64,000 nt of DNA, from positions 1-64,000 of the forward strand of contig NZ_JACJSA010000014.1 in NCBI RefSeq assembly GCF_014697545.1, in the 5' to 3' direction. Within the stretch, counting starts at the first letter, position 1, and each line of letters begins with the position of its first letter. The position numbers and the translations under genes are program-made. Positions 7,571 to 58,705 of this stretch are shown here, one piece after another. The notes under the pieces are model-generated. The model had not been told where the DNA came from and did not search any database. It was given only the letters and a program-made list of their open reading frames with translations. The stretch comes from Oscillatoria sp. FACHB-1407. Its GTDB lineage: Bacteria > Cyanobacteriota > Cyanobacteriia > Elainellales > Elainellaceae.

Positions 7571-8467
7571 ATGACTCAAGAGCAAGAATTGCAAGTTGAT
7601 TTTGCAGAGAAAAGTGCTACAGATAAAATTTTACCTAAACCTTCCTTGTTCTCCAGTCACACTTTAGGATGGAATGGCATTCTAGTTCAACACCATTATC
7701 AGCCAGCCTGGGAAACACCTGAGTACACTGCTTTGAAACATTCAATATCCATCCATCATCTCAATCATGCGGTAGAGTCAGAGCGAGTATTGGATGGTGA
7801 GAGGCAATATGAGCAAATTCAAAAGGGAGATATTGCTTTAATTCCGGCAAACATGTCTCACAAAAAGCTGTGGCAATGTGATTGTGAGTTTACGTTACTC
7901 ATGCTTGATCCAGTTTGCATTGACCACATTGCTCATGAAACTGTTGATGCGGATCGTGTAAATATTGCCCCGCACTTTGCTAAGGCTGACCCGCTCATTT
8001 ACCAAATTGGAGTGGCATTGAAATCAGAATTAACTTCAGAACAGCCCTCTACTCGCCTCTATATTGATTCGCTAACAACTGCGCTGGCAGCACATCTAAT
8101 CACACATTATTCTACAACTAAGATAAAGATGCCAACGATAACGAGTGGATTACCTAAGTATGCTTTAGAGAAAGTGATCGATTACATCCATACTCATCTC
8201 GATCAAGAAGTTACACTTCCTCAGTTAGCTGATTTGACTGGTATGAGTCAGTATTACTTTTGTAGATTGTTTAAACAGTCAATCGGAATGCCACCTTATC
8301 AGTATTTACTTCAACAACGAGTTGAGCGAGCCAAGCAATTGTTGTTGGAACACAAATTTTCGATTGCTGATATTGCCCTCCAATGTGGATTTGCTAATCA
8401 AAGTCATCTCAATCGCCAGTTCAAGCGCATTGTTGGAGTAACTCCTTTTGTATTTCAGAGGCAGTAA
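7571..8467 (+). CDS. AraC-family transcriptional regulator
   Basis: A 298-residue regulator with an N-terminal ligand-sensing half (GWNGILVQHHYQPAWETPE; later DPLIYQIGVALKSE) and a C-terminal double helix-turn-helix (LPQLADLTGMSQYYFCRLFK and IADIALQCGFANQSHLNRQF, ending GVTPF). I chose the ATG at 7571 over the one at 7538 because GGAGAAG stands ten bases upstream. It belongs to one subfamily with the genes at 8528, 22553 and 37473 in this window. The target is unknown; the DsbA-like gene upstream and the paralogue downstream are candidates. Confidence 0.9.
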   Translation: MTQEQELQVDFAEKSATDKILPKPSLFSSHTLGWNGILVQHHYQPAWETPEYTALKHSISIHHLNHAVESERVLDGERQYEQIQKGDIALIPANMSHKKLWQCDCEFTLLMLDPVCIDHIAHETVDADRVNIAPHFAKADPLIYQIGVALKSELTSEQPSTRLYIDSLTTALAAHLITHYSTTKIKMPTITSGLPKYALEKVIDYIHTHLDQEVTLPQLADLTGMSQYYFCRLFKQSIGMPPYQYLLQQRVERAKQLLLEHKFSIADIALQCGFANQSHLNRQFKRIVGVTPFVFQRQ

Positions 8468-52107: not shown

Positions 52108-52160
52108 TTCGGCGGAATGTTTAGCCTGAGTCACGCAACGGACAGTCATGTTTCAGAAAT

Positions 52161-52256
52161 GTTTCAGATCTGTTGCTACTAACCCCCACTGTCACCGTCC
52201 CCCTTGGCAAGGGGGACTACAGGGGGTCTACGGAGGCTATCAAGAGGTTTGGAACA
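52161..52256. repeat. Long inverted repeat, left arm
   Basis: GTTTCAGATCTGTTGCTAC, CGTCCCCCTTGGCAAGGGGG, ACTACAGG, TACGGAGGCTATCAAGAGGT and TTGGAACA appear here. They recur in the same order on the opposite strand at 58573-58671. The arm also has its own hairpin CCCCCTTGGCAAGGGGG. It lies just upstream of the DUF6130 gene. Confidence 0.75.
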
Positions 52257-52294
52257 TTATCAAACGAACCATTTTGCAGCCAAGAGAAAACACG

Positions 52295-52867
52295 ATGCCT
52301 AAACTAAACAAAGTACGCTACACAATCAAAGCTCGCACCATAAGTACTTTCGTCCTACTCTCAGGGCTTCTCGCCATACTCTTTGTAGCAGTAGTGTTAC
52401 TGGCACCGCCCGATCGCGTGTTGGCGCAGCAATCGGCCCAGGCTAGCGCACAAGCCCAGGTCATGACCGTGGCAAGCGCGAGGGATATTCGCGGCCCTTC
52501 ACCCTACATTGCGATCGAGAATGAACCCGCACCCAAGCTAATCGTCGATCCCCCGCTTCCCGAAGGGTTGGTTCAAGGGGTCTACTGGGCGCAATATCGG
52601 GTGGAGAACTTGCGTATCGTACCTGTATTTGGAGCGAGTGCTGTCCAGGTCTCTCCACGGGCTGGGCACCTGCACGTCATCGTCGATGATCTGCCCTGGT
52701 GGTGGGCGGATGCGAGTGACAACAACACAGTTGACATCGCGAACCTGCCGCCTGGTCAACACAAGGTACGGATCGAGTTAGTTGACCCTAACCACAATAT
52801 CTTCCCCGGACAGGTGGTGACGCAGACATTCACTATACCTGGCTACGAGAGCGCACACCTGCACTAA
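52295..52867 (+). CDS. DUF6130-type exported protein
   Basis: A 190-residue protein with a long signal peptide (TFVLLSGLLAILFVAVVLLA, cleaved near VLAQQSAQ). The mature beta-rich domain has QVSPRAGHLHVIVDDLPWWW, DNNTVDIANLPPGQHKVRIE and LVDPNHNIFPGQVVTQTF, as in DUF6130 proteins of unknown function. ATG 52295 is chosen over 52148 because the signal begins there. Its 5' leader and signal peptide are nearly the same as those of the epoxide hydrolase at 55773, although the mature parts are unrelated. Confidence 0.82.
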   Translation: MPKLNKVRYTIKARTISTFVLLSGLLAILFVAVVLLAPPDRVLAQQSAQASAQAQVMTVASARDIRGPSPYIAIENEPAPKLIVDPPLPEGLVQGVYWAQYRVENLRIVPVFGASAVQVSPRAGHLHVIVDDLPWWWADASDNNTVDIANLPPGQHKVRIELVDPNHNIFPGQVVTQTFTIPGYESAHLH

Positions 52868-52885
52868 CGGAACCAGAGAAAGATC

Positions 52886-53347
52886 ATGTTTGAAAAAATC
52901 AACCATCAACGCCGCCGCTTTTTGGGCATTGCGGACTCACCCATTGGACTCGCCGCTTGGCTCCTGGATCATAATGATGCGGGCGGACAACCAGCCGCAG
53001 CGGTCGTCGAGGCTTTGACCCGGACTACAAGCCCCACAGGCGAACTGACACGAGACGAGATCCTGGATAACATCACGCTCTATTGGCTGACAAATACGGG
53101 AGTCTCTGCGTCCCGTCTCTATTGGGAATATAAGGGTGGCTTTTTTAACACCAAGGGCGTATCTATTCCAGTGGCGGTGAGTGTCTTTCCCGGTGAGCAA
53201 TATGAGGCTCCGCGAAGTTGGACTGAGCGGGCTTATCCCAATCTTATCTACTACAACCGTGTGGAGAAGGGCGGACACTTCGCAGCCTGGGAGCAGCCCA
53301 TGATCTTTACTCAGGAACTCAGGGCGGCGTTTCGATCGCTGCGCTGA
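52886..53347 (+). pseudogene. Epoxide hydrolase C-terminal fragment joined to a Tat-type N-terminus
   Basis: The first 16 codons (MFEKINHQRRRFLGIA) look like the start of a twin-arginine signal. They join directly to DSPIGLAAWLLDHNDAGGQP and the rest of an epoxide hydrolase (DEILDNITLYWLTNTGVSAS; FPGEQYEAPRSW; VEKGGHFAAWEQP). The catalytic His remains, but the nucleophile GGDWG region and two thirds of the enzyme are absent. The C-terminus matches the intact gene at 55773 closely, so this arose by duplication and internal deletion. Confidence 0.78.
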
Positions 53348-53424
53348 ACCCCATATTAGAGAGAACCGTCAAAGTTCTCTAATTCCCTGAACCTATCCGA
53401 ACGCAACAACAGGGAGGTCAGCAC

Positions 53425-54510
53425 GTGCCAAAAAAAATTAATCATAATCGTCGCTACTTTCTAACAACTATGGTTAAAACTATCGCTGCCACCCAGCTTG
53501 GCATGATTGGCTGCACCACACAGCACACTACAACAACGGCTGAATTACCGATTGAAGGTGAACTACCTTCTCTGGACGGAGCGATCGCCTGGCTCAATTC
53601 ACAGCCATTAACCGTTGATGAACTGCGTGGAAAAGTTGTGCTGATCAACTTCTGCACATATACCTGCATCAATTGGCTACGCCAACTCCCCTATGTCCGC
53701 GCATGGGCTGAGAAATATCAGGATCAGGGACTCGTTGTCATCGGTGTACATACGCCGGAGTTTGAATTTGAGAAGATTACCAATAATGTCCGCCGAGCTT
53801 TGGCAGACATGAGGATTGCCTACCCGATCGCGATGGACAACGATTATGCGGTGTGGCGTGCATTCGGGAATCATTATTGGCCAGCCCTGTATTTTGTAGA
53901 CAGGCAAGGACGGATTCGGCATCACCAATTTGGCGAGGGCGACTACGAGCGATCGGAACGGGTGATTCAACAGCTATTGTCTGAGTCTGGAGCTAATCCT
54001 GTCAGCCAAGATGTGGTGGAAGTCGATGCTCATGGTGTTGAAGCTGCCGCCGATTGGAACAGCCTGAAATCGCCTGAAAACTACCTTGGCTACGAGAGAA
54101 CAGAGCATTTTGCGTCTTCTGGCGCAGTGATCAACAAGCCTCGTTCGTATACTGTCCCCGCACAATTGAGACGTAATCAGTGGGCACTTTCTGGCGATTG
54201 GACCATTGGACGACAAGCCATTGTCCTGAATCAGTCCGGTGGACGGATCGCATACCGCTTCCACGCCCGCGACCTGCATCTGGTTATGGGCCCGGCTGAG
54301 CAAGGAACATCCGTACGGTTTCGCGTGTTCATAGACGGACAACCAGCCATTGCAACTCGTGGACTTGACATCAATGATCAAGGCGAAGGCACGGTTACTG
54401 AACAGCGGTTATACCAACTGATTCGACAGCCCCAGCCGATTAGCGATCGCCAGTTTGAGATCGAGTTTTTAGATGCTGGAGTGGAGGCGTTTGCGTTTAC
54501 GTTCGGTTAA
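53425..54510 (+). CDS. Exported TlpA/redoxin-like protein with DipZ-type C-terminal domain
   Basis: A 361-residue protein: a twin-arginine-like signal ending in a lipobox-like MIGC (about 30), a thioredoxin/AhpC-TSA domain (about 60-185: LRGKVVLINFCTYTCINWLR, GLVVIGVHTPEFEFE), and a C-terminal beta domain like that of the DipZ family (about 215-361: YLGYERTEHFASSG; LSGDWTIGRQAIVLNQSGGR). In DipZ the CINC motif supplies both cysteines; here it reads CINW, so the resolving Cys is lost. The start is GTG 53425 with AGGGAGGT upstream. It is likely a periplasmic thiol protein, perhaps monothiol. Confidence 0.82.
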   Translation: MPKKINHNRRYFLTTMVKTIAATQLGMIGCTTQHTTTTAELPIEGELPSLDGAIAWLNSQPLTVDELRGKVVLINFCTYTCINWLRQLPYVRAWAEKYQDQGLVVIGVHTPEFEFEKITNNVRRALADMRIAYPIAMDNDYAVWRAFGNHYWPALYFVDRQGRIRHHQFGEGDYERSERVIQQLLSESGANPVSQDVVEVDAHGVEAAADWNSLKSPENYLGYERTEHFASSGAVINKPRSYTVPAQLRRNQWALSGDWTIGRQAIVLNQSGGRIAYRFHARDLHLVMGPAEQGTSVRFRVFIDGQPAIATRGLDINDQGEGTVTEQRLYQLIRQPQPISDRQFEIEFLDAGVEAFAFTFG

Positions 54511-54534
54511 TCACGCCATTAAAAGGTAAATAAT

Positions 54535-55485
54535 ATGACAAAGACATCCACACACGACAGCCCCATCCTCGTGACCGGAGCGGCGGGCGATATCGGCGGC
54601 ATTGGTCGCCATCTCACTGCCATGCTGCTCGACAAGGGTTATACCGTACGCGCCCTGGTTCGACGGGAGGATGAACGCGCTGAAAGGCTGCGCCAGCTTG
54701 GAGCTGAGGTTGTGCAGGGTGACTTGACTGATTTGGACTCAATGCACCGGGCGATCGCAGGTGTCACTCGCATCTATTTCGGAATGTCTGTCTCTCCAAG
54801 TTATTTGGAAGCAACGGTCAATGTGGCTGCGGTGGCACGGCATCACGGGGTCGAAGCCTTCGTGAATATGTCGCAGATGACGGTAACGCAAATGAGCATC
54901 ACAGCGACTACTGACAGCCCACAGCACAAGTTGCATTGGCTGGCAGAACAGGCATTAGCGTGGTCGGGACTGCCGGTTGTAACAGTGCGACCGACGGTTT
55001 TCCTCGAAGGCTTTTTTCTGCGTCTTGCTGCGGCTGGTGTGCGAGACAACGATGAACTGGCACTGCCGCTGGGGAACAGCAAGACCTCACCGATCTCGGC
55101 TGTTGATGTAGCACACGCTGTATCCGTGATCCTCGACGATCCTGCCCCGCACATTGGTCAGGTTTACAATCTGACTGGATTTGAATCAGCCGATTTGAAC
55201 CACTACGCGCATATCTTTTCCGAAGCACTCGATCGCCCGATTCGCTATCGCGACGTGCCACTCTCTGAATGGACTGATACACTTCGCAAGTTTGGGGTAC
55301 CAACGCACCTCGTCAATCACCTTGCCGTGATGGCTGAACTTCACACGCAGGGGCGATATGACCGCATGACAGATGACCTGTTTAAGCTCACTGGCAAGAC
55401 GCCGACGAATATGTACGACTTTGTGAAATTGCACGCTGCTGAATTCACCCAAAGTCAAGTCGCGGCTCGGTCTAGCCGCAGGTGA
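54535..55485 (+). CDS. NmrA-like NAD(P)-binding protein
   Basis: A 316-residue atypical SDR: ILVTGAAGDIGGIGRHLTAM, TVRALVRREDERAERLRQLG, EVVQGDLTDLDSM, then MVNMSQM-type strand AFVNMSQMTV, and a C-terminal domain with NHYAHIFSEALDRPIRYRDV. This is the NmrA/azoreductase-type family: quinone- or azo-compound-related reductases, or redox-sensing regulators without catalysis. GGTAAATAAT precedes ATG 54535. It follows the redoxin gene by 24 bases. Confidence 0.9.
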   Translation: MTKTSTHDSPILVTGAAGDIGGIGRHLTAMLLDKGYTVRALVRREDERAERLRQLGAEVVQGDLTDLDSMHRAIAGVTRIYFGMSVSPSYLEATVNVAAVARHHGVEAFVNMSQMTVTQMSITATTDSPQHKLHWLAEQALAWSGLPVVTVRPTVFLEGFFLRLAAAGVRDNDELALPLGNSKTSPISAVDVAHAVSVILDDPAPHIGQVYNLTGFESADLNHYAHIFSEALDRPIRYRDVPLSEWTDTLRKFGVPTHLVNHLAVMAELHTQGRYDRMTDDLFKLTGKTPTNMYDFVKLHAAEFTQSQVAARSSRR

Positions 55486-55720
55486 ACCGCAGTACGACGA
55501 GCTTGAGACGCGACTCGCTACATTCCCCCTCATTACCGTGCCCACCATCACGCTTGAAAGTGATGCCAACGGCGCGCCACACCCCGATAGCAGTACCTAC
55601 GCCAGCAAGTTTACCGGCAGATACTCACATCGGGTCATCAACGGTGGTATCGGGCACAATCTGCCGCAGGAAGCACCACGGGAGTTTACAGAGGCAGTCA
55701 TTGAGGTAGATGGGTATTGA
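55466..55720 (+). pseudogene. Alpha/beta-hydrolase C-terminal relic
   Basis: Overlapping the end of the NmrA gene in another frame, LGLAAGEPQYDELETRLATF, PLITVPTITLESDANGAPHP, then SHRVINGGIGHNLPQEAPRE and EVDGY before TGA 55718. This is the acid (ESDANG) and His (GGIGHN) part of a hydrolase of the haloalkane-dehalogenase/epoxide-hydrolase kind. The catalytic nucleophile half is missing. It shows a further deleted enzyme in the cluster. Confidence 0.65.
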
Positions 55721-55772
55721 TGGGGCTTAGTCTGAATCGTGAAACGAACCATTTGCAGTAACGAGAAAACCC

Positions 55773-57134
55773 ATGACCGAATTGAAAAAAGTACGCTACA
55801 GAACTAAAGTCTGCACTGCAAGTGTCTTCGTTCTGCTTTCGCGATTTCTGGTCGCGCTCTTGGCAGCAACGGTTCTGCTGGCACTGCCCGTTCACGTGCT
55901 GGCGCAGCAATCCGCTCAAATCAGGGCACAAACTCAGGTTGTTTCTGAGGCGATCGCAGACAACGCTATCCACCCCTTCCGTGTCCAGGTTCCACAAGAG
56001 TTGATCGATGATCTCCACCGTCGCCTCGTGATGACACGCTGGCCCGATCAGGAGACGGTTATGGATCGATCGCAGGGTGTGCAACTGGCGACGATACGGG
56101 ATCTGGTAGACTACTGGCAAACGGACTACGACTGGCGAAACGCTGAAGCGAAGCTCAACGCCCTGCCGCAGTTCATGACCACGATCGACGGTGTTGACAT
56201 TCACTTCATCCACGTCCGCTCCCGCCACCCCAATGCGCTGCCGCTAATCATGACCCACGGCTGGCCTGGCTCAGTGTTCGAGCTGCTCAACGTCATCGAA
56301 CCCCTCACCGATCCCACGGATTACGGAGGGCGTGCAGAGGACGCATTCGATCTCGTGATCCCGTCCATACCGGGCTTTGGTTTCTCTGGCAAACCAATGG
56401 GCACTGGCTGGAGTCCCGATCGCATCGCCCGCGCCTGGGATGTCTTGATGAAGCGACTGGGATATACACGCTACGTATCCCAGGGTGGCGACTGGGGTGC
56501 GATCATTTCCGATGCCCTTGCCCGTCAGGCTCCTCCAGGTCTGCTCGGCATCCACGTCAACCGACTTGAACGCGCAGCGACCCTCCCACCGAATGTGGCA
56601 GAGGCATTGACCAATGGGCAGCCTGCCCCAACAACCCTGACGACTGAGGAACGAACGGTGTTTGATCAGATCAGGGACTTTTACAAGACAGGCAATGGCT
56701 ATGCAGCGATTATGGGCACACGTCCGCAAACGATTGGATACGGACTCTCGGATTCACCAGTAGGACTAGCAACATGGATCTATGACAAGGTTGCTGACTG
56801 GGTGTTCACTCGCGGTGAACCAGAGCGATCGCTCACCCGCGACGAGATACTGGATGGCATCACACTCTACTGGCTAACGAATACTGGTACCTCAAGTGCG
56901 CGGATCTACTGGGAAAATAACGCCAACAACGTTGGTGCATTCGAGATCTCAATTCCCGCAGCAGTAACAATTTTTCCCGGCGAGATCTACCAGCCACCTA
57001 AAAACTGGGTAGAGCGAGCCTACCACAACCTCATCTACTATCATCGAGTGGATAAGGGCGGACACTTTGCAGCATGGGAGGAGCCACAGCTTTTTTCTGA
57101 AGAGGTTCGTGCTGCGTTCAGGTCACTGCGTTAG
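55773..57134 (+). CDS. Exported epoxide hydrolase (EHN type)
   Basis: A 453-residue alpha/beta-hydrolase with the EHN epoxide-hydrolase N-terminal domain. A signal peptide (FVLLSRFLVALLAATVLLAL, cleaved near VLAQQ) precedes IHPFRVQVPQELIDDLHRRL. The core has oxyanion-hole THGWPGSVFEL, nucleophile Asp in SQGGDWGAII, ring-opening Tyr candidates in the cap, and catalytic His in KGGHFAAWEEP. It should open epoxides to diols in the periplasm. The intact copy of the fragment at 52886. Its leader and signal resemble those of the DUF6130 gene. Confidence 0.92.
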   Translation: MTELKKVRYRTKVCTASVFVLLSRFLVALLAATVLLALPVHVLAQQSAQIRAQTQVVSEAIADNAIHPFRVQVPQELIDDLHRRLVMTRWPDQETVMDRSQGVQLATIRDLVDYWQTDYDWRNAEAKLNALPQFMTTIDGVDIHFIHVRSRHPNALPLIMTHGWPGSVFELLNVIEPLTDPTDYGGRAEDAFDLVIPSIPGFGFSGKPMGTGWSPDRIARAWDVLMKRLGYTRYVSQGGDWGAIISDALARQAPPGLLGIHVNRLERAATLPPNVAEALTNGQPAPTTLTTEERTVFDQIRDFYKTGNGYAAIMGTRPQTIGYGLSDSPVGLATWIYDKVADWVFTRGEPERSLTRDEILDGITLYWLTNTGTSSARIYWENNANNVGAFEISIPAAVTIFPGEIYQPPKNWVERAYHNLIYYHRVDKGGHFAAWEEPQLFSEEVRAAFRSLR

Positions 57135-58572: not shown

Positions 58573-58671
58573 TGTTCCAAACCTGTTGATAGCCTCCGTA
58601 AGAATCGCCTGTAGTCTCCCTTATCAAGGGGGACGACGACAGCCGGGGATCAATAGCAACAGATCTGAAAC
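58573..58671. repeat. Long inverted repeat, right arm
   Basis: TGTTCCAAACCTGTTGATAG, CCTCCGTA, CCTGTAGTCTCCCTTATCAA, GGGGGACG and AGCAACAGATCTGAAAC are, read on the other strand, the same ordered blocks as 52161-52256. Only a few bases differ. The pair encloses the genes from DUF6130 to the FAD reductase (6.5 kb). This arm is 38 bases after the last of them. Confidence 0.75.
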
Positions 58672-58705
58672 ACTATCCCTCAGTATCTATTCCCATTCCT
58701 AAAAG

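Follow-up and report, generated by a model that had tools for sequence, protein, structure and literature searches.

Here we describe a gene cluster in the cyanobacterium Oscillatoria sp. FACHB-1407 in which two neighbouring genes with unrelated mature products begin with a shared stretch of DNA. The window, meaning the whole stretch that was analysed, comprises 64,000 nucleotides. Its cluster, which also occurs in other cyanobacteria, contains SDRs, NIPSNAP, a glyoxalase, DUF6130, the epoxide hydrolase EH-A, a TlpA-like protein, an NmrA-like protein, an alpha/beta hydrolase (ABH), a further epoxide hydrolase (EH-B) and a pyridine-nucleotide oxidoreductase. The features that concern us are the following.

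52119..52141, plus strand: upstream part of the putatively captured leader (TGTTTAGCCTGAGTCACGCAACGGAC), directly 3′ of the glyoxalase gene, with matches in the DUF6130 leader of FACHB-502 and in those preceding EH-B
52160..52257, plus strand: 98-nt dispersed repeat in the DUF6130 leader, with imperfect terminal inverted repeats TGTTTCAGATCT / TGTTCCAAACCT
52261..52294, plus strand: downstream part of the putatively captured leader, with the ribosome-binding-like GAGAAAAC
52295-52867, plus strand: DUF6130 gene
52295..52480, plus strand: DUF6130 signal peptide of Sec type with its linker, for which EH-B is the probable source; the likeness to EH-B stops near 52462
52481..52867, plus strand: DUF6130 mature domain (PF19625), predicted Ig/PKD-like beta fold with weak structural matches
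52886..53347, plus strand: EH-A remnant, a Tat-cassette start (MFEKINHQRRRFLGIA) in frame with the last ~138 EH-A residues
53425..54510, plus strand: TlpA/AhpC-like thioredoxin protein with a diverged Tat-type start (MPKKINHNRRYFL)
54535..55485, plus strand: NmrA-like NAD(P)-binding protein, a member of the same cluster
55461..55720, plus strand: ABH remnant, mostly deleted; the gene has a Tat cassette in relatives
55730..55772, plus strand: EH-B leader, donor type
55773-57134, plus strand: EH-B gene
55773..55958, plus strand: EH-B Sec-type signal peptide and linker, the probable donor cassette
55959..57134, plus strand: EH-B mature epoxide hydrolase (PF06441 and PF00561)
58573-58672, minus strand: second window copy of the 98-nt repeat

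In a BLAST self-comparison of the window, positions 52262-52461 match 55742-55939 with 71.5% identity over 200 nt (E 3e-20), and a local alignment of 52261-52461 with 55742-55939 has 145 of 197 bases identical, scoring 114 against a maximum of 31 in 300 dinucleotide shuffles. The common DNA begins in the non-coding leader (AAACGAACCATTT(T)GCAG...GAGAAAAC...ATG), an intergenic piece of about 50 nt with a ribosome-binding-like site, and it stops some 167-186 nt inside the genes. The encoded signal regions agree at 36 of 62 residues and diverge after that; between the mature parts nothing was found beyond a chance 10-mer. These mature parts fall into unrelated Pfam families: the first matches DUF6130 (PF19625) at E 2e-38, with 131.9 bits against a gathering cut-off of 23.7, and EH-B matches EHN (PF06441) at E 2e-41, with 141.1 bits against a cut-off of 22.8, as well as Abhydrolase_1 (PF00561) at E 2e-10. 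The predicted DUF6130 fold is a small beta domain (a moderate model, pLDDT 72) whose Ig/PKD-like structural matches are weak, none of them below E 1e-3; EH-B, as an epoxide hydrolase, has the alpha/beta-hydrolase fold. Changes between the two cassettes number 16, 15 and 29 at the three codon positions, with a dN/dS of 0.27, a purifying pattern suggesting that each copy is being kept as coding sequence.

A sequence-only reading of the window had proposed that two unrelated exported proteins share a leader and a signal peptide, and that the likeness ends after the signal region. Both proposals agree with the alignment, leader included, which stops just past the signal. The motifs quoted in that reading were too short, as the match covers the signal in full and then a linker of 15 residues, and its picture of the leader has to be corrected, the DUF6130 leader being interrupted upstream by the 98-nt repeat. 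A search for further copies in the genome, which it had suggested as a check, returned none: the whole 8.1-Mb genome holds the cassette only on DUF6130 and EH-B (E 6e-21), and the next match is an 18-mer with E 0.13. The window by itself reveals the shared cassette; neither direction nor donor could be deduced without relatives.

Across the cluster there are two 5′ cassettes, a Tat type (MSEKINHQRRRFLGIA...) common to EH-A, ABH and DUF6130, and a Sec type (MTKLKKVRYKTKART...VLAQQ) that appears native to EH-B. These assignments are predictions from motif and hydrophobicity. The Tat-type consensus (A2, MSEKINHQRRRFLGIAAMTIAATQLGRFGSANAQ) combines an RRxFL motif with a moderately hydrophobic core and an AxA-type end, while the Sec-type consensus (A1, MTKLKKVRYKTKART..FVLLSRLLVALFAATVLLAPP.RVLA-QQ) has a basic n-region, a strongly hydrophobic core and the small residues at -3 and -1 expected for signal peptidase I; the 16-residue hydrophobicity maxima are 3.1 and 2.7 for Sec versus 1.1-1.3 for Tat. 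The cassettes circulate within the cluster, as the matches in FACHB-471 indicate. There the DUF6130 N-terminus (MSEKINPLRRRFLGIAALSIAATQLGRFGLANAQ) is of the Tat type and recurs on EH-A and ABH, the DNA matches of DUF6130 with ABH and of EH-A with ABH span exactly ATG to +114 nt at 82-85%, and the match between DUF6130 and EH-A starts in the leader, takes in the linker and stops at the mature-domain border. Scytonema likewise carries the Tat cassette on DUF6130, EH-A and ABH (84-91%). EH-B with the Sec cassette is found in five genomes of the same order and in more distant cyanobacteria. Profiles of both cassettes, run against the order and 386 genomes of the phylum, returned only this cluster and orphan stubs, with no new cargo; wherever it was found in the genomes searched, the Sec cassette stood on EH-B, on DUF6130 or on an orphan stub, and the 386 phylum genomes added two occurrences beyond the window's own genome, one on EH-B and one an orphan stub. 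In another cyanobacterial family, orphan Sec and orphan Tat cassettes persist as short ORFs from which the enzymes have been lost (L089 8289-8474, reverse complement of the G416:C1 region).

A DUF6130 profile scan of genome contigs gave 53 relatives, among which one and the same mature domain carries three export signals, two of them of the neighbours' kinds. Proteobacterial DUF6130 has a Sec signal of its own, ending ...AFAQ-SAREIRG (L106, L109, L111 and others). The EH-A Tat cassette, with the join ...AIRP(F/S)..(A)Q-SARDIRG, occurs on DUF6130 in five cyanobacteria (L097-L101: FACHB-471, Mojavia, two Nostoc and Scytonema). The EH-B Sec cassette stands on DUF6130 at eight loci, namely L102-L105, L107, L114, L116 and the window; within the same order these are the window, FACHB-502 and FACHB-886. 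The window's genome has a second DUF6130 gene (L093, G000:C32 34727-35110), which starts at the domain and lacks a signal peptide.

Tandem intermediates survive in Nostoc desertorum, N. flagelliforme and N. indistinguendum (L102-L104). In all three, a Tat leader and start are followed by the EH-B Sec signal joined to DUF6130, and the Tat start is dead, its twin-arginine RRR having become RCR and its frame being closed. Between the Tat start and the Sec signal, L102 and L103 hold the tail of the ABH gene (GTGCTCGTCAAAGTT..GACGGTTACTGATCG) and the EH-B leader, which are both missing from L104. There (8100-8240) the Sec leader was apparently dropped by a later, secondary deletion between two ACCATGAC repeats, and the Tat linker abuts the Sec start. 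At L105 the ABH-tail junction GTGCTCGTC directly follows the Tat ATGTC, and the identical junction is present in L102 and L103. In Phormidium tenue FACHB-886, ATCGGAGAAAGATCAACATCTGAAAAAATCAAT lies 5′ of the Sec leader; it is the fossil of a Tat leader whose start codon is dead, with five codons and the Tat ribosome-binding region still in place. The fossil has been lost at the breakpoints of FACHB-502, M33 and the window, for which we infer the same path from Tat to Sec.

The tandem intermediates and the fossil Tat starts together give both the direction, from Tat to Sec, and the source, the border of ABH and EH-B. Thus EH-B was very probably the donor, and its Sec-type signal took the place of a Tat-type one on DUF6130. 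In the mature-domain tree the Tat forms do not come out as basal to the Sec forms, so the direction rests on the fossils. In all likelihood, then, the EH-B 5′ region was copied by illegitimate recombination into a DUF6130 gene of the same cluster, where it displaced an earlier Tat signal derived from EH-A.

In an earlier step, DUF6130 would have been fitted with the Tat cassette of its neighbour EH-A at the signal-cleavage region. Later, a segment that in its longest preserved version consists of the ABH gene tail, the intergenic leader with its ribosome-binding site, the Sec signal peptide and a short linker would have been placed by illegitimate recombination just 5′ of the mature domain. 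The Sec cassette would then have taken over translation start and predicted export, and the stranded Tat start upstream would have decayed at a pace differing by lineage. Since EH-B retained its own copy, the event would have been duplicative. Perhaps the simplest route is a tandem duplication reaching from the mature part of DUF6130 to the EH-B signal, with a junction that linked the Sec signal to DUF6130, followed by a deletion uniting the Tat linker with the ABH tail; a templated patch would be an alternative. We infer this molecular route, a function for both signals and a real change of export route from Tat to Sec. At L100 the EH-B donor and the Tat-DUF6130 recipient have GAGCGCGA in common at the junction, a sharing that fits short-homology recombination and is only suggestive; equally suggestive, and only that, is HIP1 (GCGATCGC) as a recombination site, a motif present at the EH-B junction in several genomes.

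How often this happened is less settled, and it is possible, though less likely than not, that DUF6130 captured the EH-B cassette independently two or more times, in the Nostoc group of L102-L104 and in the group of the window. The mature-domain tree separates these two groups and requires two changes, as does the cassette tree for Sec-DUF6130, and FACHB-502 has a longer captured leader than FACHB-886. A single Sec-DUF6130 clade is nevertheless not rejected (p-AU 0.43 for the mature domain and 0.23 for the cassette), and both groups (L102/L103 and L105) have an identical odd junction, GTGCTCGTC, where the Tat remnant meets the ABH tail.

The remaining explanations do without a local copy from EH-B. 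Had DUF6130 and EH-B descended from one exported gene by whole-gene duplication, with the mature part replaced in one copy, the window would show the same shared 5′ end; but in relatives DUF6130 already lies behind the glyoxalase with a Tat signal, the locus having stayed constant while its 5′ end changed, and the intermediates, with a Tat remnant upstream of the Sec cassette, contradict replacement of the mature domain, making this history very improbable. More improbable still is a small mobile genetic or regulatory element inserting 5′ of exported genes, even though the cassette is a short, sharp-bordered unit with a leader and a start codon. Two copies in 8.1 Mb and two further occurrences in 386 genomes of the phylum are not the many dispersed copies of a mobile element or MITE, no terminal repeats were seen on the cassette, and the longest captured segment contains the tail of the gene preceding EH-B, as expected for a local copy. 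Signal peptides are of low complexity and similar composition, and two of them under like selection might converge; an identity of 72-74% that is unique in the genome, lies far above shuffles and takes in the non-coding leader refutes convergence, to which we give practically no credence.

With copying from EH-B as the preferred reading, the claim that an export cassette has been shuffled onto different coding sequences draws support from the three signals on DUF6130 and from the tandem intermediates. The term shuffling is apt for movement between unrelated genes and inapt for a mobile cassette: the spread is rare local recombination among the genes of one rearranging cluster. That cluster is actively rearranging, as is evident from the EH-A remnant, the ABH remnant and the leader split by the 98-nt repeat. 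EH-A, full-length in relatives, has in the window been reduced by an internal in-frame deletion to a 153-residue ORF of the Tat start and the C-terminal third, and the 7-nt ATTGCGG at the join is common to both ends. About 87 codons are left of ABH, the last of the gene. The 98-nt repeat has at least 39 further near-full-length copies in the genome among the matches listed. In FACHB-471, EH-B (L044 13899-15344, reverse complement) has an EH-A-like linker, and over 704 nt its DNA is 76% identical to that of EH-A, which suggests that the two hydrolase genes have exchanged sequence.

Stavrinides, Ma and Guttman reportedly described how 5′ regions bearing a secretion signal come to be fused to unrelated coding sequences. 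The likeness to type III effectors lies in a signal-bearing 5′ region on unrelated coding sequences; here the same 5′ region stands on unrelated mature domains, and the DUF6130 domain occurs elsewhere with another 5′ end, in three signal states. Their work (PLoS Pathog 2:e104, 2006) is cited in PMC2722093 for terminal reassortment of type III effectors. Those effectors have a type III secretion signal and belong to pathogens, whereas the present N-termini are predicted to be of Sec or twin-arginine type, not type III, and belong to enzymes of one cyanobacterial cluster; moreover, unlike in the effector case, a signal for one route here gives way to a signal for another on one and the same domain, with intermediates preserved. 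By analogy, we regard the DUF6130/EH-B case as a general-export counterpart of effector terminal reassortment, which would work like it without being identical. Conotoxin precursors have a conserved signal region and a variable mature part, and their origin is attributed to duplication and subsequent divergence of the mature part. They resemble the present genes in pairing a conserved signal region with an unrelated or fast-changing mature region, but here the folds are unrelated and there are recombination junctions. Horizontal regulatory transfer, or intergenic region switching, in bacteria (PMC5890482 and PMC9944727) is alike in that upstream DNA is swapped at a constant gene, and differs in that the piece exchanged here includes signal-peptide coding DNA and comes from a neighbour in the same cluster. 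Our literature search found no paper on DUF6130, and on signal exchange only engineering work or unrelated themes. Reassortment of 5′ ends is thus an already known kind of event, of which a swap from Tat to Sec with preserved intermediates is an unusual variant.

The gain or change of export signals is usually deduced from end states; here a single syntenic locus preserves donor, recipient, tandem two-signal intermediates and decayed remnants, and a signal of the Tat type gives way to one of the Sec type. This offers a testable natural case of whether the route for folded proteins (Tat) and that for unfolded proteins (Sec) are interchangeable for one domain, and it shows in what way a horizontally spread gene cluster can re-equip a newcomer with a local export tag. 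Tentatively, and at rather less than even confidence, clusters of exported enzymes might form a pool that repeatedly refits incoming genes with resident export signals by short-homology recombination at the signal-cleavage border, changes of pathway included, as when DUF6130 would have passed from its own Sec signal to Tat and on to another Sec.

Sharing of 5′ ends may also occur in a second phylum. In Mesorhizobium (L109 7007-7092; L111 7023-7100 and 5268-5348) the native DUF6130 signal DNA is similar, at 72-74%, to the 5′ end of an unrelated ORF that neighbours it and, at 80%, to a decayed second DUF6130 start.
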